Source: Mesorhizobium sp. BR1-1-16
GTDB taxonomy: Bacteria > Pseudomonadota > Alphaproteobacteria > Rhizobiales > Kaistiaceae
Direction: 5' to 3'
Assembly (NCBI RefSeq): GCF_020165495.1
Contig: NZ_JAIUIE010000018.1
Location: forward strand, 1 to 58,274
DNA: 58,274 bases
Position numbers and translations under genes: made by a program. The notes under the pieces are model-generated. The model made no database searches, was not told where the DNA came from, and was given only the letters and a program-made list of their open reading frames with translations. Numbering within the stretch: position 1 is the first letter of the stretch; every line of letters begins with the position of its first letter. This document shows positions 1 through 14,503 of the stretch, piece by piece.

Positions 1-301
1 CTCCTCGATCCGCCGCGCTCCCCGCCGCGCCACGTCAGACCGCAAGGCTAACTGCCGGCCGCCGCAGCGTTAGCGCTCCCACCGCCCCACGTCACTGCCC
101 GGCACAGCCCGGCTCCCACCCGAGGGCCGACCTCAGGTCCACCGCCCGCCGTCCTCCCTGTCTTCGCTTCCCGTCTCCTTTGGGTACACCCCAGCGAGTC
201 ATAGCGGCGAGACAGTTTCTTCGTCTCATTAGGGTTGACTTCTACATTCCGAGACGCTATCGCTCGGTGGTCTAGACCCAAACGAGACATCGGGGGAAGC
301 C
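1..301. other. Left-edge intergenic segment before the resolvase
   Basis: No convincing gene is seen here. The segment ends in GGGGGAAG a few bases before the resolvase ATG, which serves as its ribosome binding site. A TTGACT at 235-240 could be a -35 box, but no good -10 follows. Several GAGAC/GTCTC half-sites lie between about 208 and 285 in both orientations. Resolvases often act at sites next to their own gene, so these could be part of a res-type site, but that is inference. Confidence 0.35.
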
Positions 302-910
302 ATGACGACATACGGATATGCTCGGGTGAGCACAAAGGACCAAGACCTCACGATCCAAATCGACGCCCTCCGGGCTGCCGGCTGTGAGTTGATCCGGGAG
401 GAGAAGCGGAGCGGCACATCGATGGAGGGACGCCAAGAGCTTGAGACCCTTCTCGCCTTCATCCGTCCCGGCGATGTGCTGATGATCACCAAGGTCGATC
501 GCCTCGCCCGCAACATAGGCGACCTTCAAGACATCGTTCGGAAGCTTCAGGCCAAAGGGGCGGCCTTACGAACCACTGACCATCAAATCAATACCGAGAC
601 GGCTCAGGGGAAAGCCTTCCTTGGTATGCTCGGGGTCTTTGCCGAGTTCGAAACCAACATCCGCAAGGAGCGCCAGCTTGAAGGCATCGCGAAGGCGAAA
701 GCGGCGGACGCTAAGGAAGAGGATAAAAGCAAGCGCACCTACAAGGGACGCACCCCCTCCATCGATCCCGAGCGGGTCCGCGCTATGCGTTCCGAGGGCA
801 AGGGCGCCTCTGAGATTGCCAAGGCCCTCGGGATCGGCCGTGCCAGCGTCTACCGCGTGCTTGAAGCGCAAGCCGAGAGCGCCCCCAAGGCCAACCCGAA
901 GGCCGCCTAA
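302..910 (+). CDS. Small serine recombinase (resolvase/invertase family)
   Basis: Site-specific DNA recombinase of the resolvase/invertase type, 202 residues, which is the usual size. The N-terminal catalytic domain begins with YARVSTKDQD, placing the nucleophile at Ser10 and an active-site Arg at residue 8. The DRLARN motif around residues 66-71 is typical. The C-terminal 45 residues (GRTPSIDPERV onwards) form the Hin-like helix-turn-helix that reads the crossover site. Such enzymes cut both strands through phosphoserine links to resolve or invert DNA. The gene is convergent with the virion-like protein gene downstream, with only 18 bp between them. The start is supported by GGGGGAAG just upstream. 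It probably serves the mobile element, for example in dimer resolution. Confidence 0.93.
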   Translation: MTTYGYARVSTKDQDLTIQIDALRAAGCELIREEKRSGTSMEGRQELETLLAFIRPGDVLMITKVDRLARNIGDLQDIVRKLQAKGAALRTTDHQINTETAQGKAFLGMLGVFAEFETNIRKERQLEGIAKAKAADAKEEDKSKRTYKGRTPSIDPERVRAMRSEGKGASEIAKALGIGRASVYRVLEAQAESAPKANPKAA

Positions 911-928
911 GAGGCGCTCCCCGCTTCG

Positions 929-3900
929 CTATTTCGTCAAGCCGCTGAGGTCGACCCCAAAGGCCTTGCCGACCTCCGCCAAGCTCCCGCCCTGAGCCCT
1001 AGCCCCCGTGGGATCAGCCTGCTTAGTGGCATACGCCCCCTGCACCTTGAGCCGCTCCTTGAGCATCGCCGCGCGGACGTTGGGGTCCATTTTCAACACG
1101 GCTAGGGCGGCATTCCGGTACCTCACGACGAAGCCGGAGAGGAGCCAAAGCTTCGTGCCCTTGATCTCCGCCGGGCCATCGGGAGCCTTGGCATAGACGG
1201 GGCTTGTGATCGCCTTCGCCACCACTTGCTTCAGGCTTCGGACGTTTGGCCCCGGCTTGCCGGCCAACTGCTGGTAGACCTCATAGGCATTCCGGCCATC
1301 CTTGAGCGTGATATCACGGAGGTCCACTCCGCCCTTGATGCGTGCGGACGGTGGGGCGAAGGTTGAGCCGCCCTCCAGCACCTGCCGTTCAACCTCACGG
1401 TCCACAAGGTCGCTCTCCATGGTGGAGCTAAGGCCCTTCCGGGCTGTGATCGGCTCACCCCACGCATCGTATCGCGCAGGGAGATGCTCGGAGAGACCGG
1501 GGACCGTCGCGATGATCCGATCCACCACGCCCCGGGCGTCCCGGAGATACGGGTCGGGGTTCACAGTGCGGAGGAGCGAGGCGGCCGGCACGAAGTTGGA
1601 CGCCGTGCGACCCATGAAGCCCGCCATACGGCTATCCGGCTGGTCCAGAGCGTCGAGGAGCGCCCCGACGTTCATCAGGTAGGACTTGTTGCCCATCTGC
1701 TTTGCGACGCTCACGAGGAGCGCCGTGGTCCCGTTTTCGACCCGTCCCATGAGGTCCGCGTCGCCTGTCTCCTCCGCTATGTGGATGGCGTCCGCAAGGT
1801 CCGCCACAATGCCCATCGGCATGGCGACGGGATCGAACTTGCCGAACGGCGTGTAGGTGGTGGTGCCGTCATCATGGCGATTGACGAAGGAATAGGGCTG
1901 CCACCCCGTAGCGAGCAGCGCCGAGCGGAGCTTAGGGTCGGACGGGCCGCCGCTCGTGATCGTGCCCTGAGACGCCTTGAAGGCGAGCGCCCCCATAAAG
2001 AGCGTCCCCAAGCCCATCTGCCCCACCGCCTGGGCCCTCGCCTCCTCCCCCAGCTTCCCGGTGATCATCTGCCGATACTCGGATTGCAGAAGGTTGAGGC
2101 CCGGCGTCATCTTCCAGCCGTACCGGAGGACGTTGGTCGGGGTCTTCACGAAGGGCAACACAATGCGGAGCGCCGGGAGTTGGGCCGTGCCGTCCTGGAC
2201 CGCCTTGCCGAAGGTCTTGGCGAGGAGGTCTTGCTGGAAGGTGGCAATCTGCGCTTCCCGTTTGGCCTGGGCGTCGAGGCCCACCCCGTTATCGTCAAAG
2301 GCGTCATCCAGCTTCTGCCCGATGAAGTCTCGCAAAGCCTTGCCCTCAAGCCCCCGCTCCATGCCGTCCACATGGGCCTTCGCTAGGACCTTCGAGCGGT
2401 AGGTGATCTGCTTCATCATCTCATCCGCGAAGCCGAGGCTCCGGGTCGGAAGTCCGATGAGCGTTTTCGGGGTCGAGACCACGAGCACATTGTGCACGAG
2501 GTTGGGGAGACTGCCCCACGGCTTGAAGTTGAGCGCGTTGGCACCCTGCCGCTTGCCCTGTAAGCCGGCCTGGAGCACCTCGCTTCCGTGCGGCGCCAAC
2601 CGGCTATCCCCCAAGACGAACGCCTCCCGGGCCGCCCGAAACGAGTCCCCCAAAGCGGTCCCCATGTACAAATACTGCCGCATCGCCTCGGAGCGGATGG
2701 CCTGCCCGCCCTGGACCGCGAAGCTCCCCACGATCCGCTCGGCTGGCCTTGCGGCGAGCATGTAGCCGTTAGTGGAGATATTCACGAGGTGGGTCTTCCA
2801 GCCCCAGAGGAGGTTGTTGACCTGGAGGAAGTTGGCCCAGTCCGCGATCTTCGCCCAGGTGGACGGTGTGGCGATCTTGGCGAGGGCCTTGGGGTCGCCC
2901 ATCGTGTTGGCGATAAGCTGCGCAAGGCGCTCCCCGTCGACCTCCGTAAGGGCCTGGATGTCTTCGGGCTTCAAGCGGAACTCGCCGCGCATCCTACGCA
3001 GGGCCCGCCCGGCATTGGCCGTGATGGACCTCGCCCCGGAATACGCAGCGGCCGAGATGGAGACCTGCTTCTTGAGGCCGTCGAGGGCCTTTGTGAGGTC
3101 CCCACCCCACTCGTCGAGGACCCCGGCGTTGATGCGGGAGGCCATCGCAAAGCTATCCTGGAAGGCACGCTGGGAGACGAGATAGCCCGCCTCCATGTCG
3201 GCCACCATGCGGGAAGCCGCTTTGCCGGACTGCTGGATCATCCCGAGGAGGGCCGCAGGGTCTTCCCCAAAGAGGTTGGCCCGCTGCTGGACCATCTGTT
3301 GGACCCGGGCATCGGAGAGCACGTCCCCACCCTTCGCCTTGTTGACTTCGGCTTCGATGCTATCCGCAAGGCGTGCTGTGAAGTCCGTGGTGCCGCCGCT
3401 CGGGTCATCTTGGGGGTCCAACTTCTGCCACGGGACCTTCTCGCCTACGCCGAAGGTGTGCCCGTCCTGGATGGCGCCCTGCCACGAGCCGGCCTTATCG
3501 ATCGCCTCGGCGTCGGAGCGGATGCCCGAGAGGAGGCCGTTGATCTGGTCGTCCGTGATCTCGGGGAGCTTCAGGCGCGGCGGGAGCTTTGTGCCGTCTT
3601 GCGCTGCCGCTTCCGTGGCGTTGGGGACGGCGGTGAAGGTGGCTCCGATCGGATTGGCCACGCCTCCAGCGGTCTCGGCATGTGGCAGTGGTCCACCGCC
3701 CACACCAGCCACTGGAGGTACTGAATAATTGCCATTCGTCGCATCCTTTCCGAACGTCCCCGCTTTGACCTCTGCGGCGATCTTGGCGTTTAGGGCGGCG
3801 ACCTCTTCCGGGCTGGCATTAGCCGGGGGCGGGTTAGTGCGGAGATTGACCGCCGCCTCCGTCTCACGGGCCGCAGCTTCAGCCGCCACGTGGTCACCGG

Positions 3901-4696
3901 AAGCCAGCGCCTTGTACGCCTTGGTGGCGCCCACGAGCACGGCTCCGAGAGCGGCATCAAGCCCGATGCTTTCGATGGCGGACTTGAGGCGCCCCTCTGC
4001 GGCGGTATCCGTGGGGTCCGCTGCGAGCCACCCGGTGATCGGATTGGAGAGGGCCGGGAAGCTCTCGATGAGATTGGAGAGGCGGGCATCGTGCGGGTCG
4101 AAGACGATGGACCCCACCGTCGCCGCCTTGACTGCTTCGGCCGCACCACGAACCACGCCTCCCGCCCTCGCAATGGCACCGCCTGCCGCCTCCAAAGCGG
4201 GGACGGCAAGCTGGGCGCCCTTGAGGAACTTCCCCGCACCGATGAGCCCGGTGGCGAACTGGGAGACCCCCATGATGAAACCGTTGACCGGGGAGTCAGC
4301 CTGGAGTTGACGATTGGTGGACTCGAAGTCCTTCCGCCACGCAGACTTATCGGCCTCCGGGGGCTCCCCGAAAAGGAAGTCCTTCGTTTCGAGGACCGCA
4401 TTGCCCGCCCCGCCGCCGATGGACTGTATGGCCTCAGAGACGTGGCCGAGGGGGTTCAAAGTCTGGGGCGTTGGGGAGGACGGCTGGGCGTTGGGATCGG
4501 CGGATGGAGCGGCCGGAGGGGGGGCCTGTGCTTCAGCCGGAGTAGCAGCGGAGGCCGGCTGTGCCGCGCCGGCTTCTATAGACTGCACAGCATCGGCTAT
4601 AGCTTGGCTGGAAGCCTCGTCCCCCTGCTTTGCGGCAGGAGGCGGGTTATTCGCCACTGTATCGGCTAGGAGCTTCTGGAAGAGAGCGTCATCCAT
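929..4696 (-). CDS. Very large phage internal-virion-like protein
   Basis: A 1255-residue protein starting at MDDALFQ, with AAAGG upstream; an in-frame extension to 4855 is less likely. Residues 20-100 are a low-complexity Ala/Pro/Gln linker. The next 200 residues contain Gly/Ala-rich, possibly membrane-active helices. The remainder is helical, with a long C-terminal part (LPFVKTPTNVLRYGWKMTPG and after) of the kind I associate with internal core or ejection proteins of podoviruses and other large polyvalent phage proteins. I cannot name the exact family. It is the only virion-like gene in this element; no capsid, portal, tail or terminase gene is visible to its right. It could be ejected with DNA, or it could be a remnant of a larger prophage lying left of the window. 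Confidence 0.6.
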   Translation of the reverse strand: MDDALFQKLLADTVANNPPPAAKQGDEASSQAIADAVQSIEAGAAQPASAATPAEAQAPPPAAPSADPNAQPSSPTPQTLNPLGHVSEAIQSIGGGAGNAVLETKDFLFGEPPEADKSAWRKDFESTNRQLQADSPVNGFIMGVSQFATGLIGAGKFLKGAQLAVPALEAAGGAIARAGGVVRGAAEAVKAATVGSIVFDPHDARLSNLIESFPALSNPITGWLAADPTDTAAEGRLKSAIESIGLDAALGAVLVGATKAYKALASGDHVAAEAAARETEAAVNLRTNPPPANASPEEVAALNAKIAAEVKAGTFGKDATNGNYSVPPVAGVGGGPLPHAETAGGVANPIGATFTAVPNATEAAAQDGTKLPPRLKLPEITDDQINGLLSGIRSDAEAIDKAGSWQGAIQDGHTFGVGEKVPWQKLDPQDDPSGGTTDFTARLADSIEAEVNKAKGGDVLSDARVQQMVQQRANLFGEDPAALLGMIQQSGKAASRMVADMEAGYLVSQRAFQDSFAMASRINAGVLDEWGGDLTKALDGLKKQVSISAAAYSGARSITANAGRALRRMRGEFRLKPEDIQALTEVDGERLAQLIANTMGDPKALAKIATPSTWAKIADWANFLQVNNLLWGWKTHLVNISTNGYMLAARPAERIVGSFAVQGGQAIRSEAMRQYLYMGTALGDSFRAAREAFVLGDSRLAPHGSEVLQAGLQGKRQGANALNFKPWGSLPNLVHNVLVVSTPKTLIGLPTRSLGFADEMMKQITYRSKVLAKAHVDGMERGLEGKALRDFIGQKLDDAFDDNGVGLDAQAKREAQIATFQQDLLAKTFGKAVQDGTAQLPALRIVLPFVKTPTNVLRYGWKMTPGLNLLQSEYRQMITGKLGEEARAQAVGQMGLGTLFMGALAFKASQGTITSGGPSDPKLRSALLATGWQPYSFVNRHDDGTTTYTPFGKFDPVAMPMGIVADLADAIHIAEETGDADLMGRVENGTTALLVSVAKQMGNKSYLMNVGALLDALDQPDSRMAGFMGRTASNFVPAASLLRTVNPDPYLRDARGVVDRIIATVPGLSEHLPARYDAWGEPITARKGLSSTMESDLVDREVERQVLEGGSTFAPPSARIKGGVDLRDITLKDGRNAYEVYQQLAGKPGPNVRSLKQVVAKAITSPVYAKAPDGPAEIKGTKLWLLSGFVVRYRNAALAVLKMDPNVRAAMLKERLKVQGAYATKQADPTGARAQGGSLAEVGKAFGVDLSGLTK

Positions 4697-4722
4697 GGTG
4701 GGACCTTTGGGGTGAGAGGAGG

Positions 4723-5505
4723 CTAGAGCCGGGCCGCCAAGAGTTCGCGCTTCCATCGCGGGACCCATCCCGGGACTTGCGAGGGGTGCGGCCCAAAGCG
4801 TTCGGTCTTCAAGGCGATGATGGCGGGGAGGTGCTGCGCTGTGAGGTGGCCGCAAGCCGCCTCTATGGTCGACCCAAGGAAGCGCAGCACGCGGCCGGAG
4901 CTTTGCGGATAGATGTCGCGGCGGATCGCATGGGGATTGCGCGGGACGGTGGAGTTTCGGCCGAGGACGCCCTCGCGGTGGGTGCCGGAGGCGAGCCGGT
5001 GGACCGCCTTGCCGACCTGGACCAAGCGGTACTCGTCGCTCCGGTCAGCATCGGCGTCTTCCGCGATGAGCGCGGTGATCGCCATGTGGATGGCTACCAG
5101 TCGCTCCGGGCGAATGCCCGCCTTGCGAAGCCGCGCCATGGCGATGCGGACCTTTTCCTTAGGCAGCTTCGTTCGGACCTCATCCGCGCGGACGGCTTCA
5201 CGCGGGTGGGGCATGGACCACGCGACATCGGCCACCGCCGTGGCCACCTCAGGGTCCATTGCGTTGACCTTGAGCCACGCGGTGGCGGCCGTGACGTAGG
5301 GCTTGAGGTGCGGCGCACGGATCGTGCGACATAGAAACGAGCCGTGCCGGGCCTTGAGTTTGACGTGATAGCCGCAGTGGAAGGGCGAGAGGCCACGCCC
5401 TTCGGCCTGGAGAGTTGGCCTGCCGCATCCGGGTAGGACGCACACGGGCGACGGGTCCAAGTTGGGGCCTTCGGCAACGCGGCGCTTGATGGAGGGATCG
5501 CGCAT
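4723..5505 (-). CDS. Hypothetical protein with N-terminal Cys/His zinc-binding motif
   Basis: A 260-residue protein of unknown function. Near the N-terminus (about residues 22-55) it has a C-x4-C spacing, then FHCGYH and RHGS. This resembles the small zinc-binding motif found in many phage and mobile-element proteins, where CxxxxC..CxxH is followed by RHG. The rest is Arg/Ala-rich and probably helical, without a motif I recognise. It lies 26 bp upstream of the giant virion-like gene on the same strand, so the two are probably co-transcribed. A DNA-binding role is plausible but is only inference from the zinc motif. Confidence 0.6.
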   Translation of the reverse strand: MRDPSIKRRVAEGPNLDPSPVCVLPGCGRPTLQAEGRGLSPFHCGYHVKLKARHGSFLCRTIRAPHLKPYVTAATAWLKVNAMDPEVATAVADVAWSMPHPREAVRADEVRTKLPKEKVRIAMARLRKAGIRPERLVAIHMAITALIAEDADADRSDEYRLVQVGKAVHRLASGTHREGVLGRNSTVPRNPHAIRRDIYPQSSGRVLRFLGSTIEAACGHLTAQHLPAIIALKTERFGPHPSQVPGWVPRWKRELLAARL

Positions 5506-5516
5506 TGGCCTGAGCC

Positions 5517-6263
5517 TCAGGTGGCTTCGCGAAGGTCCCAGGGGAGCGGGCGCAATCCGTCAAGGACCCTGTAAGCATCTAGAATGTGACTGCGAAACCC
5601 GTCTCGGGAGAGGCCAAGAGCTTCCTTGGCGGCCCGCTTCGGACGGCTCGCAAGCCTATGGAGTGAGAGCGCAAGAGCCGCTTCACGTCCGTCTGTCGGT
5701 GATCGGGTGCGGCGTCCCCGTGCCCGCTCGGAGGCTTCATCAGCGGGCTTGCGAAGGCCTGCTCGACGATAGTCATAGTGATCGAGGACGCTATGTCGGG
5801 CTATCTTTGCGACCGGCGTATTCGCCAGAAGGCGCCCGAGGTCCGGCCTGGAGTTTCCGCTAAACAAAGCGAGATAGTCTTTCCGATCCGGGTCATCTTC
5901 CGCCCCGTTCTTCTTGAAGGAAAACCCTCCTCCGCACGCCAGATGCAGAATGATAATCCCGAAGCCCTCGGGATCGACGCGGCGCTCTCCCCGCAGCGGC
6001 GCCTCATCTAGGCTTTGGTCGGACCTCAGGTTCACAAGGTCACGGAGTCGGACGCCAATGTAAGGGCCGATATCATCAACCCCGACCGAGGTGGCGGGGT
6101 GGATAGCGCTCTTCCACGTCTCCAGCCCCCGGACCAATACACCCGGATCAACCTCAGGAAGGCCAGGGTCTACTAGACGGGCCAAACTGGGGGTCAGCCA
6201 TTGACTGATCCAAGCGGAATAAAGCGCAGGCGGAGCGGGGTCGTAGTTAGGACGTTTGCTCAT
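5517..6263 (-). CDS. Hypothetical mobile-element protein
   Basis: A 248-residue protein that I do not recognise. The start at MSKRPNYDP is chosen because AAAGGA lies about 8 bases upstream; the frame stays open to 6440, but that extension is a Pro/His-rich shadow. The first half is acidic and mixed. The C-terminal third is Arg/Ala-rich (RARGRRTRSPTDGRE, then ASRPKRAAKEALG), suggesting nucleic-acid contact. The stop is only 11 bp before the start of the zinc-motif gene, so the two probably share a transcript. No enzyme motif is visible. Confidence 0.55.
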   Translation of the reverse strand: MSKRPNYDPAPPALYSAWISQWLTPSLARLVDPGLPEVDPGVLVRGLETWKSAIHPATSVGVDDIGPYIGVRLRDLVNLRSDQSLDEAPLRGERRVDPEGFGIIILHLACGGGFSFKKNGAEDDPDRKDYLALFSGNSRPDLGRLLANTPVAKIARHSVLDHYDYRRAGLRKPADEASERARGRRTRSPTDGREAALALSLHRLASRPKRAAKEALGLSRDGFRSHILDAYRVLDGLRPLPWDLREAT

Positions 6264-6354
6264 GGGTGATCCTTTGGTTTGCCTAGTGGCCCGCCTAGGG
6301 CCTAGCCAGTGGTGTGGTGCACGGCCGGGGTAGGGGCTGTGGTGGGAGTGAGGG

Positions 6355-6894
6355 TCAGGGCAAGGTATCGGTGCGGCCCGTGTGCCCCCTGTAGTTAACC
6401 TTGGTAGTCCTCCGGGCGGCCGCATAAGACCCCATGGCATCTCTCATGGTGTAGTAATGAGTCCGATGGACCACTGCCAAGTTGTTGGCCAGGACTAGCT
6501 CCTGTATGAGTCGAATGGCGTCGGGAATTGATCTATAGTCGGCCACCATTCCGATATGGACCCCACATTTTTCTTCGTCAATGCCCCTTGCGGCGCGGAT
6601 CGAAGGATGCTCTTCTGCATCTTCTATTTCACGAATATTCAACAGCGAGCCGGGCCAAGCACTTAGGCCCCGCTTACTTGGAAAACCGCGTCCAACCGAA
6701 GGGAGAATTATTTTGAGCGAGCCCCGCGTTTCACGCCGAAGCCAAGCTTTTGCGTTCATCGGAACGAGCATGCTCGAGTCCGCATCGCGCGGCCGATGGG
6801 CACGGCTCATGGTCACCACGTGCACGTTGATAATGCCGGTGGCGGCTATCGGCGGGGACGGCAGGTTGGCCCGTAAACGCCTGTATTTCACCAT
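6355..6894 (-). CDS. Hypothetical protein, divergent from the next gene
   Basis: A 179-residue protein with balanced composition in its centre and C-terminus (for example IREIEDAEEHPSIRAARG and IPDAIRLIQELVLANNLAV), which argues for real coding. It is noticeably more AT-rich than its neighbours, hinting at a different origin. I see no named domain. The first ATG at 6894 overlaps the ATG of the plus-strand gene in the palindrome CATG, leaving no room for promoters. Internal Met residues at about 29, 42 and 46 are alternative starts. It may be a regulator or an accessory mobile-element protein, but nothing shows which. Confidence 0.5.
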   Translation of the reverse strand: MVKYRRLRANLPSPPIAATGIINVHVVTMSRAHRPRDADSSMLVPMNAKAWLRRETRGSLKIILPSVGRGFPSKRGLSAWPGSLLNIREIEDAEEHPSIRAARGIDEEKCGVHIGMVADYRSIPDAIRLIQELVLANNLAVVHRTHYYTMRDAMGSYAAARRTTKVNYRGHTGRTDTLP

Positions 6895-7309
6895 GACGGC
6901 GGGCGATGACGCCGGTATGGCTATCGGGCGGGAGGTCGAGTCCGCCGCGTCGCAGGCAGTACTCTGGCACAGGGAGCATCCGGCCTGGGGTCCGCTTAAT
7001 GTCGTGGTACCGGTCGGCTCTATGCCTGCCCACCGCAGTGAGGCGCTCCAGAATACCGCCGTGGTCGATGACTGGGACGTGTGCGACGGCTTCGGTCACC
7101 TCATGGCCAAGGCTCAACACCTCGCCGCCGGCCACCTCTCCGAATTGATCATGAAGGGCAAGGTGGTGATGGAAGCTGCCGCCTCCCTCTCCGCCTCGTT
7201 CGACGATGAGGCCGGCGAGGAGGACCCCCTAGTGCTGCCACCCAACGTCATCCCCTGGAGTCCCTCACGACGGAACCATGGGCGAGACTGGTGGCACCCT
7301 CAGGGATGA
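6893..7309 (+). CDS. Hypothetical protein upstream of the polymerase-like gene
   Basis: About 138 residues if it starts at 6893. The frame is open upstream to 6581, but there it overlaps the minus-strand gene. The region VVDDWDVCDGFGHLMAKAQH is followed by an amphipathic helical stretch, an acidic patch (DDEAGEEDP) and a C-terminal RRNHGRDWW. No family is recognised and no convincing ribosome binding site precedes the chosen ATG, so the start is uncertain. Its stop lies 54 bp before the polymerase-like gene in the same direction, so the two may be co-expressed during element replication. Confidence 0.4.
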   Translation: MTAGDDAGMAIGREVESAASQAVLWHREHPAWGPLNVVVPVGSMPAHRSEALQNTAVVDDWDVCDGFGHLMAKAQHLAAGHLSELIMKGKVVMEAAASLSASFDDEAGEEDPLVLPPNVIPWSPSRRNHGRDWWHPQG

Positions 7310-7351
7310 GGTGGGGTCGCACTCCCGCAAATGATCTGGTGAGGGTTACCC

Positions 7352-7359
7352 GGAGGTGA
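7352..7359 (+). promoter_or_regulatory. Consensus ribosome binding site fixing a TTG start
   Basis: GGAGGTGA is an essentially perfect anti-16S match placed five bases before TTG at 7364. The nearer ATG at 7359 runs straight into a stop (ATG CAT TGA), so TTG must be the start of the polymerase-like gene. Confidence 0.8.
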
Positions 7360-7363
7360 TGCA

Positions 7364-8644
7364 TTGAAGGGCCCTAGGTTCGACCCCCAGAGGAGGGCAT
7401 TAAGCCTCCCCTTGAAGTCAGCCATTAGCCGCCTCACCGCCTACCTGGGTGAGCGTGAGCTAGCCCTCGGCCTCCGCCAGCGTGCTCGTCGGGAGGTGGA
7501 CCACAGGTCCTTCAAGCTCGCCGTGGAGGTGACCTTGTGCAACCTCGTGGTGGCTGAGGTGGTGGGGGCTGAGAGGGTCGAGGTGTATCGTTCCCTCGCC
7601 ACCATCCGCCGTGCTGACCCTTGGAGGCCTGAGGTCTACGCTAAGGGGTTGCTCGATGCTCTGGACGTGATGGCTCATCCCAAGGTCGGGCTCATGGGGA
7701 TGGCCACGGGGTACCGCTTCGACGGGACGGGCGGGAGACCCACTGAGATAAGCTCAAGGCCTGCGCTGTGGTCTCACGTGCCACCTGAAGCCCTATCGCT
7801 CAAGGCCATGGACCGCCTCCCAGAGCCCGAAGTGCTGGTGCTCAAAGGGATGGATGGTGAGGTCCAACCTATCCCGAGCACTCGCACGGCCGAGAGCTAC
7901 AGGCGCCGGGTGGTAGGGCTTAATGCCCGGCTTAAAGCCCTGCCTATCGACCTCTTGCCGGTGGCTTCCGGTCCGCCCTATGGCCTCGGCAATGACGGCA
8001 GGCCCGTGGACCCCACGCAGGTGACAGTGAAGCGGTACTTCAATCGGGGACGCATGGACCGTGGGGGTCGACTCTTTGGGGCATACTGGGAGGAGATGCC
8101 GAGGATGGATCGCTTCCACCGTCTGAGGCTTGGAGGGGACCCGGTGGTCAACGTGGACTATGGCCAACTCTACCCCCGCCTCGCCTACCTCGTGGCGGAC
8201 CGTGAGCCTCCCGAGGGAGACCTCTATGCGGTGCCGGGATTGGAGCATTGCAGGGAGGGGGTGAAGCTCATGACCTCCGCCCTTCTCTTCTCCGAGCATC
8301 CCCTCAAGGCTTGGCCTAAGGGTGGACCTCAGGCTTTCCCCAAGGGTACCAAGCTCGGGGAGGTGGTGGGGTCCATCTCCTCCAAGCATCCCGGCCTCGT
8401 GCCGTACTTCGGGTCTGGCCTCGGGTACCGCCTCATGTTTACCGAGAGTGAAATTCTTCTCGGGGTGCTTGAGGTCCTGCACCGCGAGGGGGTCCCGGCA
8501 CTGCCCATGCACGATGCGGTCATTGTGCCGGAGCGTCATGGACCCCGGGCGAAGGAAGTCATGGAAGTGGCCTTTGAGAGGATCGGCGGGCGAGTCTCTT
8601 GCGGTCTCGTTGAAGTGCAAGGGATGGCGGAAGTCTGCGGTTAA
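7364..8644 (+). CDS. Compact family-A DNA polymerase-like protein
   Basis: A 426-residue protein whose C-terminal half carries the landmarks of a family-A polymerase palm and fingers. Motif A is VDYGQLYPRL with Asp265 (compare DYSQIELR), followed by GDLYAV near 285. Motif B is RxxxK at Arg297/Lys301 with an aromatic Phe309 eight residues after the Lys. Motif C is MHDAVIV with His383-Asp384. Before motif A is GGRLFGAYWEEMP, a signature I associate with uncharacterised phage and mobile-element proteins. The N-terminal 220 residues show no 3'-5' exonuclease DxE motif. It is far shorter than Pol I or T7 polymerase. It probably synthesises or repairs element DNA, but activity is inference. The start is TTG with a perfect Shine-Dalgarno. 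Confidence 0.65.
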   Translation: MKGPRFDPQRRALSLPLKSAISRLTAYLGERELALGLRQRARREVDHRSFKLAVEVTLCNLVVAEVVGAERVEVYRSLATIRRADPWRPEVYAKGLLDALDVMAHPKVGLMGMATGYRFDGTGGRPTEISSRPALWSHVPPEALSLKAMDRLPEPEVLVLKGMDGEVQPIPSTRTAESYRRRVVGLNARLKALPIDLLPVASGPPYGLGNDGRPVDPTQVTVKRYFNRGRMDRGGRLFGAYWEEMPRMDRFHRLRLGGDPVVNVDYGQLYPRLAYLVADREPPEGDLYAVPGLEHCREGVKLMTSALLFSEHPLKAWPKGGPQAFPKGTKLGEVVGSISSKHPGLVPYFGSGLGYRLMFTESEILLGVLEVLHREGVPALPMHDAVIVPERHGPRAKEVMEVAFERIGGRVSCGLVEVQGMAEVCG

Positions 8645-8652
8645 GGAGCCTT

Positions 8653-8952
8653 ATGGCACGCGCTAAAGGAGGAGCCATAAGGTGGACCTCAAGGGGAGAG
8701 TGGTTGGAGGGTGTTGACCTCACCACCTCCCGCCTAGGGGGAGAGCCGGGAGGGACTACAAGGTGCTTGGGGGTGGCTCCCCGGGCATTCCCTCCCGGCT
8801 CTCCTCGGGCTCTTGGTGGACGGTATGGGTTGCCTCAAAGAGGCCGGGGCGGTGGGGGAGCGACCATCCCGGGTCTTCCCCTGGAGTTGACCCTCACTGG
8901 TCACCTAGTGCACTGCTCTATGTATATGCCTGGAGGGCTGGGGTTCTCATAG
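8653..8952 (+). CDS. Possible small ORF after the polymerase-like gene
   Basis: A 99-residue frame starts 8 bp after the polymerase-like stop and has AAGGAG five bases before its ATG, the best argument for translation. The encoded peptide is Gly/Arg/Pro-rich without recognisable structure, and it crosses a 16-bp inverted repeat and the first 46-nt repeat. It may be only a leader or a fortuitous frame. Confidence 0.25.
   Translation: MARAKGGAIRWTSRGEWLEGVDLTTSRLGGEPGGTTRCLGVAPRAFPPGSPRALGGRYGLPQRGRGGGGATIPGLPLELTLTGHLVHCSMYMPGGLGFS
8740..8804. repeat. 16-bp perfect inverted repeat
   Basis: The arm GGAGAGCCGGGAGGGA at 8740-8755 is matched exactly in inverted orientation at 8789-8804, with a 33-nt loop. 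It lies downstream of the polymerase-like gene and could be a transcript-ending or transcript-protecting stem, or a protein-binding dyad. No T-run follows it. Confidence 0.6.
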
Positions 8953-8988
8953 AGGACGGTATTAAGGGGAAATTCCTCAATGATTTCA
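8943..8988 (+). repeat. 46-nt direct repeat, copy 1
   Basis: Begins GTTCTCATAGAG and contains GGGAAATTCCTCAA. It is identical to copy 2 at 40 of 46 positions by my count. It is markedly AT-richer than the surrounding sequence. It lies between the polymerase-like gene and the integrase gene. Confidence 0.8.
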
Positions 8989-9161
8989 ATGAAAGCTCCA
9001 TTTAGCTCCCTCAAAGTCCCCGCTTTTAGCCGCCTTTTCGCTTCTCCAAGCTCTCCTTCGACCGTTTCCCGGGAGGAGAGAACGCTTCTGAGAGGCTTAA
9101 AGCAGCACCCGGGGTGACTGGGGGTCCATCCGCCATGCCTCCACCTAGAGCCGGCCGGGGT
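8989..9161. other. Spacer between the two 46-nt repeats
   Basis: This 173-bp stretch shows no gene on either strand with a credible start. The whole interval from the polymerase-like stop to the integrase stop (8645-9210) otherwise contains only a doubtful small ORF, a 16-bp inverted repeat and the paired 46-nt repeats. Confidence 0.5.
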
Positions 9162-9207
9162 GTTCTCATAGAGAAGGATATTAACGGGAAATTCCTCAAC
9201 GTTTTCA
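9162..9207 (+). repeat. 46-nt direct repeat, copy 2
   Basis: Second copy, in the same orientation, 219 bp from the first and ending four bases before the integrase stop codon. Conserved blocks are GTTCTCATAGAG, TATTAA and GGGAAATTCCTCAA. Candidate roles are integrase arm sites, replication iterons or promoters for a phage-type RNA polymerase; none is proven. Confidence 0.8.
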
Positions 9208-9210
9208 GCT

Positions 9211-10641
9211 TCAGGCCTCTTTCGGGGCGCTAGATCGCCTCCGGGTGCGCCTCGAAGGAGCCTCCCCAGCATCGGGCGGGATGGGCTCCGGCAGCACGAT
9301 GGACCCCACGAGTTCCTTAAGCTGCCGCTGCATGTCGGGCTTGGAGTAAACCCCGAACGTCATCCCCTTGCGGGAGTGGCCGACTGCCAGCGCAATGAGG
9401 CTCTCGGGATAGCCGGCCTCCTCCGCCTTCGTGATGAACCAACGGCGGAACGAGTGGAAGTTGACGAGGGAGCGGCGGCGATCGGGTCGAACCTGCTCCA
9501 ACTTCAGGCTACGAAGGTAGCGGCCGAACGCCTGACTTTCTGCCATGCTGCGCTCCCTCCCCGTCTTCACCAAGTCGATATCGTCAAAGAGCCAAGCGTC
9601 CGGCCCCTTGCCCTTGCATCTCGCCTCGATAACCGGAAGGAGCTTAGGGTGGCTCGGCAGGGCACGAGCGGCCTTCTCCTTCTTCAGCGGCGGCACGGAG
9701 AGCATTCCGCCCTCAACGTCGCAATCCCTCACGCGAAGCCGGAAGATGGCCTCAAGGCGGGCTCCCGTAAGGGCGCCGAAGAGCATGGCGTCCATCGTCC
9801 TCGGCGTCGGTGAGCCGCCCAAGAGCTTGCCGAGTTCTTCCGCCGTGAAGGGGCGCTCGGTCTCGTGGGTCCCCTCGGCGCTGCGGGCCGCGACGGTTTG
9901 CTCTTTGGGGAGACGCTGATGCTCCCAAGGATTGGGAATGCTGGACTTGATCCGGCCCGCATCGACCATCCACCGCCAATAGTCGGTTAGGCCCCAGCGG
10001 TAGCTGGTGATGGTCTTCCGGTTCAGGCCTCGCGTTCCGAAAAGGAACGTGACGAGGAACCTATGTGCAATATCCCGGTCCACCGTCTCGACCGTCGACC
10101 CCAGCCCTTCTTCCTTCATCCACGCGATCAAAGCGTTGATGGAGCGGCGATGCAGGCTGATGGACCGCATAGGCAGTCCGGTTGCAGAGAGCCAATCGTC
10201 AATGTTGATGGTGAGGGGCGTCGCTTTCCCTGCCGCGACATCCCTAAAGAGGCCAGCTTGACGTTCGCTCTCGGGATCAAACTCCCCGTCGCCAAAAGCA
10301 CCCGTCCCAGTCTGTTTTCCGAGCAAGTCAAAGTACCGATCGCGGATGCCCGTTTCAGCACCATCCGCCTCCGCGTCGCCCCTCGCCTGCATTAAGGCTC
10401 TGCGATACCCCAGCGCCTCCTCTTCAAGAGGTAACGCCGCGCTCCCCTTCCGGGCCGCTTCTATTTGCGCCTTCAGCGCCGCAATGGTCTCCCAGCGCTT
10501 CGCCCGGGCGACATTAAGCTCCCGTGTGCCTAAGCTCTTAACGAGCCGCTTCTTGCCCATCGTCTCCCGGAGAGATGGCGGGATTTCAATCTCCACGTAG
10601 TACCCTTGGCGGCGCTTGGTGAGATATCGCGTATCGGTCAT
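9211..10641 (-). CDS. int: Tyrosine-type site-specific integrase
   Basis: A 476-residue phage-type integrase that inserts and excises the element by strand exchange through phosphotyrosine links. Residues 1-50 (YLTKRRQGYYVEIEIPPSL and on) form the short N-terminal beta module seen in many alphaproteobacterial integrases. Residues about 145-235 are the core-binding helices. The catalytic domain shows Arg295 (TGARLEAIF), HxxR at 396-399 (HSFRRWF), His422 and the nucleophile Tyr432 (GVYSKPD). The start at MTDTRYL is chosen because AAGGGG lies just upstream. The gene is transcribed away from the tRNA-Ser-like sequence at 10771, the expected arrangement for an integrase beside its attachment site. 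All catalytic residues are present, so it may be active. Confidence 0.93.
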   Translation of the reverse strand: MTDTRYLTKRRQGYYVEIEIPPSLRETMGKKRLVKSLGTRELNVARAKRWETIAALKAQIEAARKGSAALPLEEEALGYRRALMQARGDAEADGAETGIRDRYFDLLGKQTGTGAFGDGEFDPESERQAGLFRDVAAGKATPLTINIDDWLSATGLPMRSISLHRRSINALIAWMKEEGLGSTVETVDRDIAHRFLVTFLFGTRGLNRKTITSYRWGLTDYWRWMVDAGRIKSSIPNPWEHQRLPKEQTVAARSAEGTHETERPFTAEELGKLLGGSPTPRTMDAMLFGALTGARLEAIFRLRVRDCDVEGGMLSVPPLKKEKAARALPSHPKLLPVIEARCKGKGPDAWLFDDIDLVKTGRERSMAESQAFGRYLRSLKLEQVRPDRRRSLVNFHSFRRWFITKAEEAGYPESLIALAVGHSRKGMTFGVYSKPDMQRQLKELVGSIVLPEPIPPDAGEAPSRRTRRRSSAPKEA

Positions 10642-11263
10642 GGTGGCCCCTTGGAAAGGCGGAAAGGGCTCCCCTGCCCCATACGCACCCCCACACGATA
10701 TACCCCACACAGATGCGCTTTGAAAGACCGGAACTGCGCCATTCTGCCGTTACTAGAGGGGATCGCGGAAAATCTCCCCCTCTCCGCCACTAACTTCCTG
10801 TTTTCAATGATTTTTTGACTTCTGAGAGACCGCGGCGGATAGCGCCGTATTTTCCGAGGCTTGCGGGCGGTCGATCTTCATGAGGGTGCGGAGAGACGCA
10901 TTTTGCGCCTAGGCACCCGCGCATCCTAATTCTCCGTCTCCGCGACGGCTTGCGGCAGTACCCCTTTTTCCATTTTGGGTACCGGCGGTTCGCTGACTGC
11001 GCCCCTGTCGGCCTCACGGCGTCCTTACGCCTGCAGGAGGCAAGGACACCTATCGGCACCAGACCAAAGGGGGCGCACTGGACCCGGCGCCCGCCGATCA
11101 AGCTCTCCGCTACCGGCAGTCCGCATGAGACCGCCCTAGAAGCCCGACACAAGGTGCTGACGATGCCAGAGGACCAACGGCGCGGAAGCGGCGTCGATTG
11201 CGGACGCCTTAGCTTCCAACTTGTGGATACTAGCGCAGGGCAGGCTGGAAAGCTGCGAGGTAG
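10642..11263. other. Intergenic segment between integrase and recombinase remnant
   Basis: No credible gene is seen. It contains the tRNA-Ser-like core at 10771-10788 and, at about 10959-10981, a GTACCCC...GGGTAC dyad with a T-rich centre. A minus-strand frame across 10790-11152 has a basic, unstructured sequence and no good ribosome binding site. The segment probably marks the right end of the left-hand element and scar sequence beyond it. Confidence 0.4.
10771..10788 (+). repeat. tRNA-Ser 3'-end-like attachment core (candidate att)
   Basis: AATCTCCCCCTCTCCGCC followed by ACT looks like the T-arm and acceptor 3' end of a serine tRNA gene (typical ending ...CTCTCCGCCA), but no tRNA body precedes it. 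It lies 130 bp upstream of the integrase start. The 17-mer AATCTCCCCCTCTCCGC recurs exactly at 35602-35618. It is most simply read as an att half-site left by integration into a tRNA-Ser gene. Confidence 0.55.
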
Positions 11264-13137
11264 CTACTCGAATCCGAGCACGCGGCGCTGCTCCCCCCAG
11301 TCGATCGGCAGCCGGGTGTCCGCCATCAGCTTGTTGGCTGTGAGGGTTATAGGTTGCCGGCCGTCAAGAATTGCCGTCACAATGTCGGGTGCAAGGAAGG
11401 CCAGTCTGACGAGCCGCGAGACATAGGACTTGTTCAAACCCTCGTTCCTCGCAAGTTCGGCCGCGGTGAGTTCGGGATCGCTGTTCAACCGGTCGAAAAG
11501 ACGGCTCGCCCGAGCAAGGATTCTCGCGAGGCTCTGATCCGGCACCGCCGCCGCCGTCCTGCCCGGCACGATCAGCCTGAGTTCGTGGCCGGCTCGCTTG
11601 CAGACAATAGGGACGGTGAGTTCGATGCCACAGCGACGAATCTGCTCGCCATCATATCCTACGGGAGCCGCGGCAGCTTGGTTCGGGTTGGTTGCATCCC
11701 GATCTGTCAGATCGGCCGGTACGCCGGCGTCGCGGACATGCAGGATCTGCAAGAGCGCCGAGCTGTCGATCGAGATGTGGACACGATCAGGATGGACAGC
11801 GATGCGCTGGAGGATGGCGAGCAGGAAATCTCGTTGAGCAACCTCGCCGCCACTCCCGAGGAGTGACGCCTGTCGCCCGGCAGCATCCAACAGCGCCTGC
11901 TGGCCCAATGCATCGAAGGATCCACGTCTATGATTGGTCAGATCGTCGTCCGCGTCCGCCGCCGCGGCGACATCGGACGGAGTGGTGAGGAAAGCGCGTA
12001 GCCGATCGATGACTAGCCGCTCAATGCCGGCTGCTGGAAGCCGCTGACCGGATGAGACCATATTGGCGGGGCCGGTCGCGTCGCCATCCTCCGACTTCGC
12101 CGCTCGGGCTGCGATCAGCGTCTGCGAGACATAGTAGCGATAGCGGACGCCCTTCTTGCTGGCATGTGTCGGCGTCATCCTGTTGCCGTCGGCATCGAAG
12201 ATGAGCCCGGCGAGCAGCGACGGCGCATCGGCATTAGTGCCACGCTCCAGGTTGCTCGATTGGCCGCCAGGATCTCCTGCACGTCGTTGAACAGCACCTC
12301 GTCGATGATCGGATCATGCTGGCCGGGATGCGCGATGCCCTTGTGCACGATCTCGCCGCGATAGAGCCGGTTCGATAGCATGGCATAGAGCGCACCACGG
12401 CCGAGCGGCTGGCCGCCATAGGCGGAGCCGTTGTCGCGCTTGCGGCTTTTGCTGACGATGCGGTGCTTGTCGATCTCGGCCTGCAGCAAGCGCACCGACT
12501 TCAGCGCGGCGTATCGTTCAAAGATCCAACTGGACCGTCTCGGCCTCTGGCGTGTTCACCACCAGCTTGCGATCCTGGACATCGTAGCCGAGCGGCGGCA
12601 GACCGCCCATCCACATGCCCTTCTTTTTCGACGCCGCGATCTTGTCGCGGATGCGCTCGTCGGTGACCTCGCGCTCAAACTGCGCGAAGGAGAGCAGCAC
12701 GTTCAGCGTCAGCCGGCCCATGCTCGACGTGGTGTTGAAGGCCTGGGTGACCGAGACGAACGACACCTGAGCTGATCGAAGATGTCGACGATCTTGGCGA
12801 AGTCGGCGAGGGAGCGGGTCAGCCGGTCGACCTTGTACACGACCACCACGTCGATCTTGCCGACCGCCACATCGGCTAACAGCCGCTTCAGCGCCGGCCG
12901 GTCCATGGTGCCGCCAGAGATGCCGCCGTCGTCATACATCTGCGGCAGCGCGATCCAGCCCTCGTGGCGCTGCGACAGGATATAGGCCTCGCAAGCTTCG
13001 CGCTGAGCGTCGAGCGAGTTGAAGTCCTGCTCAAGTCCCTCCTTGCTCGACTTGCGGGTGTAGACCGCGCAACGGAGCTTTGTCGCTCCGGCCGAAGCCA
13101 TCCGGGGCGAGGACGATGATGACGGCGCCCTAGCCAT
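11264..13137 (-). pseudogene. Large serine recombinase with zinc ribbon, broken by frameshifts
   Basis: Pieces of one large serine recombinase (about 620 residues if intact) lie in successive frames. The N-terminal catalytic piece (about 12770-13137) has CAVYTRKSSKEGL with the nucleophile Ser and KVDRLTRSL. The next (about 12518-12766) has SVTQAFNTTSSMGRL and FEREVTDERIRDK. The recombinase-domain piece (12230-12495) has RGALYAMLSNRLYRGEIVHK. The C-terminal zinc-ribbon/helical piece (11264-12178) begins MTPTHASKKGVRYRYYV. At least three frame breaks are needed, near 12770, 12510 and 12230, so no full-length product is made. The family usually sits with DUF2924 and DUF3489 genes, exactly as here. 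The remnant is strong evidence of an old integrated element. Confidence 0.88.
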
Positions 13138-13677
13138 GGTGCGATGCCTTCCTGGGACTCGATGCCGGCGCGGAGGCGAGCTCGCACTTTCCATGCATGC
13201 CGCCGGTCGCTCTGCTCGCCGCGCCGATGCCGAAGAAGCGTGGACCGGACCAATGCGTGCCGTTGATCTCGCGGGCGATCCTCGTCAGCGAGCGGTAGCA
13301 GCGGCCGGCATAGTCGAAACCGGTATCCGTCACGGTGACGCTGTGGGTTCGGCCATGCCACTCGCGAACCAGCCGCGTGCCAGGCGTCAGCACCGCGCGA
13401 GGAGCGCCACAGCGATCGTCCCTCGCCGACGACGTTGCAGCATCGGCGGAGGTCGCCTTCGCCGCATCGGCTATGGTGCGCAGCTAGCGAGCGGCGGCCT
13501 TGCCGAGGCCGCCAAAGCGATTTCCTGATAACGATGGCCGATGGCACGCTTCAGCAGGTCATGGCTGAGCGCGGGTGGCTGCGAGCGGAACAGGCGGCGC
13601 CACTCGACTTTTAGCGCCGCCGTGTCCATCGTCTCCAGCTCCGCCAGTCTCTTGGCGAGAGAGGCGGTCATGACCGT
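13130..13677 (-). pseudogene. DUF2924 family gene, frameshifted
   Basis: The N-terminal part (13471-13677) begins MTASLAKRLAELE and continues through KVEWRRLFRSQPPALSHDLL, typical of DUF2924. The C-terminal part (13130-13393) reads LTPGTRLVREWHGRTHSVTV and REINGTHWSGPRFFG in another frame, so at least one frameshift near 13400-13500 separates them. DUF2924 proteins have no assigned function but travel with large serine recombinases. Neighbours on both sides are also broken, which favours real decay over isolated sequencing errors. Confidence 0.85.
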
Positions 13678-13681
13678 CGCC

Positions 13682-14503
13682 TCAGACCGCCTTGCCCGTC
13701 GCTGGAGGCGCTGTCTCAGCATTCGCGCTCGGCAGGATACGGTAGACCGAACCGGCATCGCAGTCCTTCTGACGATCGATGCGATGGCCCTTCTTCCGCA
13801 GGCAGCGCAGCAACGCCCGCACCGTGTGCGGCAGCCAACCGGTCGCAGCCATCAGCGCCTCGATAGTGGCACCTTCCTCGCGCGACAGCAGCGCGATGAT
13901 CTGGTCCTGCTTGGACGGGCTTCGCCGCGAGGAGGGGTCCGTCCAAGCACGGTCGACCTTGCCGTCGCTTTCCGAAGTGACCGGGTCCACACCTCCATCG
14001 GTCCAGGTAATCGTGCCGTCGAGCGGATCGTCGTCAACCACCTCCGTCTCATCGCCGTGCCGAACAGTGCCGTCTAGGCCGGGGCCGTTGGAGTCGGCAG
14101 CGACGCCCGAGGCGACCTCGCGAACCAACTGATCCGACTTCTGCACCGTAGGTCAGTCGCCCACGGCCTCAACGCCGATCGCTGCGTATCCTGCCACCGT
14201 GATACGGAGGCCAATCCGACCAGCATCGTCGTCACGCCGCCAGCTCTCTGCATCGGAGCTGGCAGGCACTTCCTCGACGAGCGCCCGCGCAAGAAGATGA
14301 CTCAAGACTGCCTTGAGGGCACCACCGCGCGCCTTCAAATCAGCCGGCGGCGGCAAGATTGAACCATTGTCGCGGTTGGCGGCTGTGCTCAGCAGAACCG
14401 ATGCTGTGTCCGAGAGCGGCGGGTTCCGTCGGCCCACTGCGGTCGCCTGATCTCCGACCTGGACTACGCTGCCGCCGTTCTCGATGCTGTTGTTGATGGT
14501 CAT
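13682..14503 (-). pseudogene. DUF3489 family gene split in two
   Basis: The N-terminal half (14153-14503, 116 residues from MTINNSIENG) contains SDTASVLLSTAANRDNGS and LVEEVPASSDAESWRRDDD, the usual start of DUF3489 proteins. The C-terminal half (13682-14146) contains KQDQIIALLSREEGATIEAL and ATGWLPHTVRALL, the winged-helix-like DUF3489 domain. A stop/frame change at about 14150 separates the halves. The whole family member is normally a single protein of about 200-250 residues, thought to bind DNA. It is the first gene of the decayed DUF3489-DUF2924-recombinase cassette. Confidence 0.8.

Follow-up and report, generated by a model that had tools for sequence, protein, structure and literature searches.

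The open reading frame (ORF) at positions 7364..8644 (+ strand, stop included) of contig NZ_JAIUIE010000018.1 of Mesorhizobium sp. BR1-1-16 almost certainly encodes, judging from its relatives and its modelled fold, a miniature family A polymerase of the divPolA2 type, with a family A palm, reduced fingers, an unrelated N-terminal domain and no exonuclease. The window analysed here is this whole contig (58,274 nt; contig C10 of a 29-contig genome). The polymerase gene is located in an integrative element at a tRNA-Ser gene, a placement in which we have high confidence; the integrase of the element marks one end, and its resolvase lies closer to the opposite end. A sequence-only reading of the ORF had proposed a miniature family A polymerase in an integrative element, and this is borne out by an AlphaFold2 model, Foldseek matches, a Pol I profile, an attachment (att) core and an empty integration site.

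The polymerase and its family

The ORF looks like a real gene of 426 codons with a good ribosome-binding site: a Shine-Dalgarno-like GGAGGTG (7352..7358, + strand) lies ahead of the TTG start codon, placing GGAGG 7 nt upstream. No model in Pfam or NCBIfam, PF00476 included, matches the ORF at an expect value (E) ≤ 1, and the sole match in the family libraries is phrog_4756 of PHROGs (function unknown; E 4.6e-16), which covers residues 218–409 only. An exonuclease domain, which the sequence-only reading had already reported to be lacking ahead of the polymerase motifs, was found neither with these libraries nor in a PDB fold search of residues 1–172 at E ≤ 1e-3.

AlphaFold2 on 72 sequences yielded a model with a predicted local distance difference test score (pLDDT) of 93.8 and a predicted template modelling score of 0.91. 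In this model, motif A ends a strand (259–266), motif B lies in a helix (294–309) and motif C is placed between two short strands (380–382 and 385–389). Foldseek returned 67 matches in PDB at E ≤ 1e-3 (best 4.6e-6), and the 50 of these 67 that were listed are all family A DNA polymerases, with no RNA polymerase among them. In the viral library of Foldseek, the best 11 matches are proteins of 400–450 residues aligned over most of their length, one of them named as a DNA polymerase of a Rheinheimera phage, and many of the matches ranked below them are named DNA polymerase I. Comparison of the family profile with a profile of 25 Pol I proteins gave E 7.3e-5 and a score of 44.5, against 14.9 for the reversed profile and at most 24.8 for 50 column shuffles. 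In this register, D265 corresponds to the motif A Asp, Y270 to the steric-gate Glu, R297 and K301 to motif B and H383-D384 to motif C. A fold prediction and a profile search had been suggested as checks on the polymerase assignment, and both are in agreement with it. An earlier Pol I profile comparison (99.3%, E 1.8e-20) was rejected as an artefact, as the match became 65.8% and E 5.7e-5 once 5 of 43 rows, in which the motifs had not been located, had been dropped.

Several results speak against a family A assignment. The Foldseek template modelling scores are low (0.27–0.35 of the query for the matches listed), the Pol I profile match has a probability of 62.5%, and a search of PDB by sequence finds no polymerase. 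Further, no match to two T7-type DNA polymerases was obtained by profile comparison (E 0.26), a worse result than for three T7-type RNA polymerases, which matched weakly (E 0.0072 over 50 columns, from three sequences only).

The N-terminal domain (residues 1–172; 7364..7879, + strand) replaces the exonuclease and the canonical thumb in the model. Modelled alone it reached a mean pLDDT of 91.7, and no PDB fold matched it at E ≤ 1e-3; a weak match to a predicted transcriptional regulator was obtained (E 0.24). The order of helices and strands in the model may resemble that of a winged helix.

The family has a published name. divPolA2 was described by Yutin et al. (2024; Virol J 21:200; PMC11348598) in barbaviruses and other phages, and the passages of that paper concerned with it report an active palm, an absent exonuclease and an N-terminal domain without known relatives. 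According to the same passages, divPolA2 is not the main replicase, barbaviruses having a regular PolB in addition, and perhaps acts in repair or as an RNA polymerase. In the open-licence literature, the name divPolA2 was found in this paper and its preprint only, while the groups named in the relevant part of a 2026 survey of DNA polymerases in bacteria are PolA1, PolA2, PolA3 and a minor PolA1-like one (PMC12926913). With a profile made from the window protein and its relatives, the divPolA2 reference protein AUR84708 was the only match at E ≤ 10 among 135 ORFs (1.5e-40), and with a phage-only profile, the window ORF was the only match at E ≤ 1 among 336 ORFs (9.8e-26); blastp with AUR84708 gave E 6.9e-10 and 21.6% identity over 449 columns. 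Thus, the window protein shows homology to AUR84708 and the phage members, the conserved catalytic palm, the missing 3′ exonuclease and the orphan N-terminal domain, all of which characterize divPolA2. It shares the palm, the O-helix and motifs A, B and C with Pol I-type enzymes as well, but lacks a PF00476 match and the Glu/Phe/Tyr triad. The family had been taken to be uncharacterised, which is correct for its function but not for its name.

Active site and sugar selection

Conservation was counted in an alignment of 116 relatives, the denominators being the members with a residue at the position in question. Near-invariant are D265 of motif A (8156..8158; 114/114), R297 (110/112) and K301 (112/112) of motif B, which forms the O-helix and extends to F309 (8252..8290), H383 (109/112) and D384 (111/112) of motif C (8510..8515), as well as R236 and R250 (113/113 each); all these features are on the + strand. 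The motif residues and their positions had been read correctly from the sequence beforehand, and so had a spacing between motifs A and C of about 120 residues, tighter than in Pol I. This distance is 119 residues in the window protein and 116–170 in the family (median 125, n=109), compared with 176–178 in 38 Pol I control rows, the motifs in the other 5 of the 43 having been missed by the script (wrong frame or regex miss). The GGRLFGAYW box (residues 234–242; 8063..8089, + strand), which had been thought to define the family, is real and conserved. However, the profile alignment sets it against TGRLS of Pol I, and it is, therefore, the family version of a known segment. Fold and conservation argue against a chance occurrence of the motifs, and the retention of the catalytic residues in nearly all members against a dead enzyme.

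One departure from Pol I concerns the residues around the sugar of the incoming nucleotide. Glu, Phe and Tyr occur together in all 38 readable Pol I control rows, for which the motif B search term accepted no residue other than Phe, Tyr or Leu at the Phe position. The window protein has Tyr270 (8171..8173, + strand; position of the steric-gate Glu710 of Pol I), Ser305 and Phe309 instead. Across the family, the steric-gate position is occupied by His in 78/114, Phe in 11/114 and Glu in 2/114 members, and both Glu-bearing members are Vibrio phage proteins, AUR84708 being one of them, which pair in the tree. The O-helix Tyr position is Asn in 73/112 members and Tyr in 1/112. The residue following His-Asp of motif C is Ser in most divPolA2 members and Ala in the window protein. 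For a Bacillus enzyme, exchange of the steric-gate Glu for Ala is described as strongly lowering the discrimination against ribonucleotides in the relevant passage of PMC7200780. Since the Glu is lost in nearly all of the family, altered sugar selection is predicted for polymerases of the window type.

The integrative element and other copies of the gene

The integrase end of the element is marked by a 19-bp att core (10771..10789, + strand), which equals the 3′ end of the tRNA-Ser(CGA) gene on contig C3. DNA similarity to congeners starts at window position 10771, just beyond the integrase (parts of the integrase gene excepted). In one congener, G385, the same stretch runs on into a tRNA-Ser gene and thus represents the empty site; to the left of it, the congener matches contig C3 of our genome at 84%. 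As the two matches overlap by 19 bp at the tRNA 3′ end, the element is located between the tRNA-Ser gene of C3 (1536–1625) and window position 10789, provided that C3 and C10 are neighbours, as we infer. If they adjoin, the element is at least 12.3 kb long, with about 1.5 kb of it on C3 and the contig break within it. The site came from the congeners, as a search for long DNA matches within the genome itself revealed none.

The tyrosine integrase (9211..10710, − strand; DUF6538 and Phage_integrase in Pfam) and a serine resolvase/invertase (302..910, + strand; PF00239, E 1e-38) are accompanied by three ORFs on the − strand: a phage internal-virion-protein-like gene of 1308 codons (929..4855; phrog_6651, E 7.1e-45), a 260-residue protein with a Cys/His cluster (4723..5505), relatives of which occur near polymerase genes, and a 307-residue ORF without a family match in the library scans (5517..6440). 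The C3 part contains a 465-residue ATPase-like ORF with a P-loop-like motif (107–1504, − strand, of locus L257) and the tRNA end; the ORF is 52% identical to one near the divPolA2 copy L142. Searches of solved structures with the ATPase-like protein, a 798-residue partner and the Cys/His protein gave nothing significant. Among the seven window ORFs scanned, with part of the element beyond the contig break, no other polymerase was recognised. The genome has one PF00476 match, a 1009-codon frame on another contig which we judge to be the host Pol I (PolB and PolC were not searched for). Just outside the element, serine recombinase frames apparently broken up lie at 11264–13547 (− strand); this region is probably older flank rather than element, because window 10771–13918 is 85% identical at the DNA level in G385.

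Based on the following results, divPolA2 genes of bacteria often form part of elements that integrate at tRNA genes and carry a tyrosine integrase as well as a serine resolvase. A profile search detected an integrase near 16 of 20 copies and a resolvase near 5 of 20, and neither in 20 control windows (0/20 each) taken from 14 of the same genomes; both profiles derive from proteins encoded next to the gene itself, a bias in favour of the test set. Pfam, used as an independent scan on 292 of the 398 near neighbours in two sets of 146, identified Phage_integrase 13 and 8 times and Resolvase 6 and 12 times. After removal of duplicates, 109 loci remained, with clusters of integrase homologues near 56 and of resolvases near 39. 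Within 10 kb of the 102 loci outside lytic-phage isolates, profiles detected an integrase or a resolvase at 69, both at 29 and neither at 33, and at least one of the two was present at 54 of 69 loci with at least 4 kb on either side. At the seven phage isolates, searched 4–6 kb each side, none was found (0/7). Ten further copies from the genus, fetched with 19 kb each, have a resolvase in 10/10 and an integrase in 9/10 cases; one of them (L240) is identical with locus L094 of the 109.

Direct repeats of 17–26 bp overlapping a tRNA gene at one end were present at 5 of 11 other copies tested. A repeat was accepted if longer than any in 10 shuffles of its region, and the 17-bp repeat is only slightly longer; the remaining 7 of 12 regions, including the window taken alone, had no such repeat. 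The elements bounded in this way measure 8.0 kb (L233), 15.3 kb (L200), 16.9 kb (L237), 17.0 kb (L239) and 17.8 kb (L241). In the smallest (L233, 7679–15693, at tRNA-Ala), profiles recognise polymerase, resolvase and integrase. No report of tRNA-integrating elements with divPolA2, of the steric-gate loss or of the RNase HI company described below was found in open-licence literature listings.

With tblastn, relatives were found in 201 of 50,697 phage records, every one below 60% identity; of 72,556 plasmid records, 3 contain a relative. In the host class, 22 of 385 genomes carry the gene at E ≤ 1e-3, our own included; in the genus, 7 of 14 genomes, again including our own, have one to three copies, the others being 31–43% identical to that of the window. 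A pattern search gave 71 loci in bacterial genomes and 12 in viral contigs, while a search of viral contigs with the window protein alone found no relative and a megablast of window 1–12000 against phages no match. At four loci (L024, L120, L139 and L152) the polymerase gene is split over two reading frames, which suggests decay, or sequence error, in some elements.

Some neighbours recur. RNase HI adjoins the polymerase gene in seven loci (4 of the 109 and 3 of the 10 genus copies), always on the same strand (7/7) and with gaps of −8 to 229 bp; five of these seven served as seeds of the profile and two were found by it. Neither those loci nor the 20 controls yielded a further RNase HI among their ORFs. 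In 10 of 109 loci, a relative of the Cys/His protein is encoded no more than about 0.5 kb from the polymerase gene, whereas in the window the distance is about 1.9 kb and the strand opposite. These ten loci and the window all fall within one group of 16 in a tree of the palm (local support 0.91; FastTree, midpoint-rooted, 112 rows, 4 of 116 having been dropped as too gappy). Relatives of the internal-virion-like protein are encoded at 3 of 109 loci (L200, L201 and the viral contig L077), those near the polymerase gene in two other genomes being 37–46% identical. In the window, this large gene belongs to a small element in which no head genes were recognised.

In L236, L237 and L238, the order is resolvase, short tyrosine recombinase, small ORF, polymerase, RNase HI, a protein of about 800 residues and integrase; searches of Pfam, PHROGs and PDB with the 800-residue protein of L236 found no match. 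Related proteins of about 1000 residues are encoded upstream of the polymerase in L239, L240, L241 and L200; those of L239 and L200 resemble peptidase M15 or endolysins in their C-terminal part. In the vicinity of some copies there are restriction, BrxL, Abi_alpha and OLD-like genes, which are perhaps cargo.

Possible roles and known systems

The sequence-only reading had further proposed a replicase-like protein for self-directed replication of the element, which is unproven; in phages, divPolA2 is accessory and not the main replicase, since six of seven isolates also encode a full-size Pol A (778–903 codons; five of the six over the Pfam cut-off) and barbaviruses have PolB. The seventh isolate, a barbavirus, has no Pol A by that model. 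As the protein is accessory in phages, yet the sole polymerase recognised among the scanned ORFs of the window element, we favour, tentatively and with slightly less than even confidence, an accessory polymerase for element maintenance. In such a scheme, the integrase would excise the element, the N-terminal domain would hold the polymerase on element DNA, and the polymerase would, together with host enzymes, make nucleic acid to maintain the excised form by limited copying, gap filling or priming, while the resolvase would resolve circles. An RNA/DNA hybrid may be used or made at some step, as suggested by the loss of the steric-gate Glu and by the RNase HI genes next to some relatives. The full-size Pol A of the six phage isolates weighs against a maintenance function, as do the RNase HI genes, which accompany a minority of loci and are missing from the window, the self-derived integrase and resolvase profiles, and the fact that neither primase nor helicase was recognised in the seven window ORFs scanned, part of the element lying beyond the contig break.

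If ribose is no longer selected against, the protein could instead be an RNA polymerase or primase, transcribing or priming element DNA like single-subunit RNA polymerases. We regard this as rather unlikely: no such enzyme is among the 50 listed of 67 PDB matches, the profile match to the three T7-type RNA polymerases is weaker than that to Pol I, the O-helix Tyr common to both classes is nearly always replaced in the family, and Ala follows His-Asp in the window protein. About equally improbable, in our view, is a repair or lesion-bypass polymerase, or defence cargo, that benefits host or phage rather than copying the element. Its coexistence with full-size polymerases in six phage isolates and the variable neighbourhoods with defence genes near some copies would fit such a function, but the recurrent neighbours are integrase and resolvase, not one defence gene, and in the smallest att-bounded element profiles recognise these two and the polymerase, the other ORFs not having been scanned against family libraries. 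The internal-virion-protein-like gene, found likewise in two other genomes and one viral contig, could point to a left-over replicase of a decayed prophage. This we consider very improbable, as relatives of that gene occur at only three of 109 loci, no capsid, portal or terminase was recognised among the seven ORFs scanned in window 1–10789 (a scan of the larger ORFs in one part of an element divided between contigs), and similar gene company occurs in att-bounded elements of 8.0–17.8 kb.

Extending the favoured maintenance function, the window might represent a class of integrative elements of bacteria that have a family A polymerase at their core and correspond to the family B pipolins. The integrase would excise, the resolvase would resolve, and the mini polymerase would copy, accepting ribonucleotides or starting or extending RNA, and in some elements RNase HI would remove the hybrid; the enzyme would then stand between DNA and RNA polymerases, and the copies in lytic phages would come second to the element pool or be exchanged with it. 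We put this forward as a speculation with a low chance of being correct. If the polymerase does copy the element, self-synthesizing elements could be based on family A as well as on family B. divPolA2, published in 2024, has no known function so far, and its recurrent neighbours integrase, resolvase and, at times, RNase HI, in att-bounded elements down to 8.0 kb, offer a context for testing function in bacteria. Further, a steric-gate Glu nearly always lost next to retained catalytic aspartates makes a sharp biochemical prediction on the difference between DNA and RNA polymerases.

Among the closest known systems is divPolA2 of the phages: its published members and the window protein are homologous over most of their length, keep the active-site aspartates, lack an exonuclease and have an unrelated N-terminal domain in place of the canonical thumb. 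In the sugar pocket, AUR84708 has Glu, Tyr and HDE, whereas the window protein has Tyr270, Phe309 and HDA. The main text of PMC11348598 treats divPolA2 as an extra polymerase of Caudoviricetes genomes, and the word “integrative” is absent from it; it also describes the N-terminal part as unrelated to that of T7-type RNA polymerase. With the Pol I type (PF00476), the window protein shares the fold, palm, O-helix and order of motifs A, B and C, but it has no exonuclease, a shorter distance from A to C, no Glu/Phe/Tyr triad and no PF00476 match. T7-type single-subunit RNA polymerases belong to the same superfamily as divPolA2. Ser after the motif C His-Asp in most divPolA2 members is a likeness to them, whereas the profile match is weak and the window protein half as long. 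Pipolins, as described in the relevant passages of PMC7385651, use a family B, primer-independent piPolB, in contrast to the window element with its polymerase of family A by fold (no separate PolB search was made) and its serine resolvase. Nevertheless, pipolins are likewise integrated at tRNA genes, with att repeats, a tyrosine recombinase, a polymerase of their own and variable cargo.
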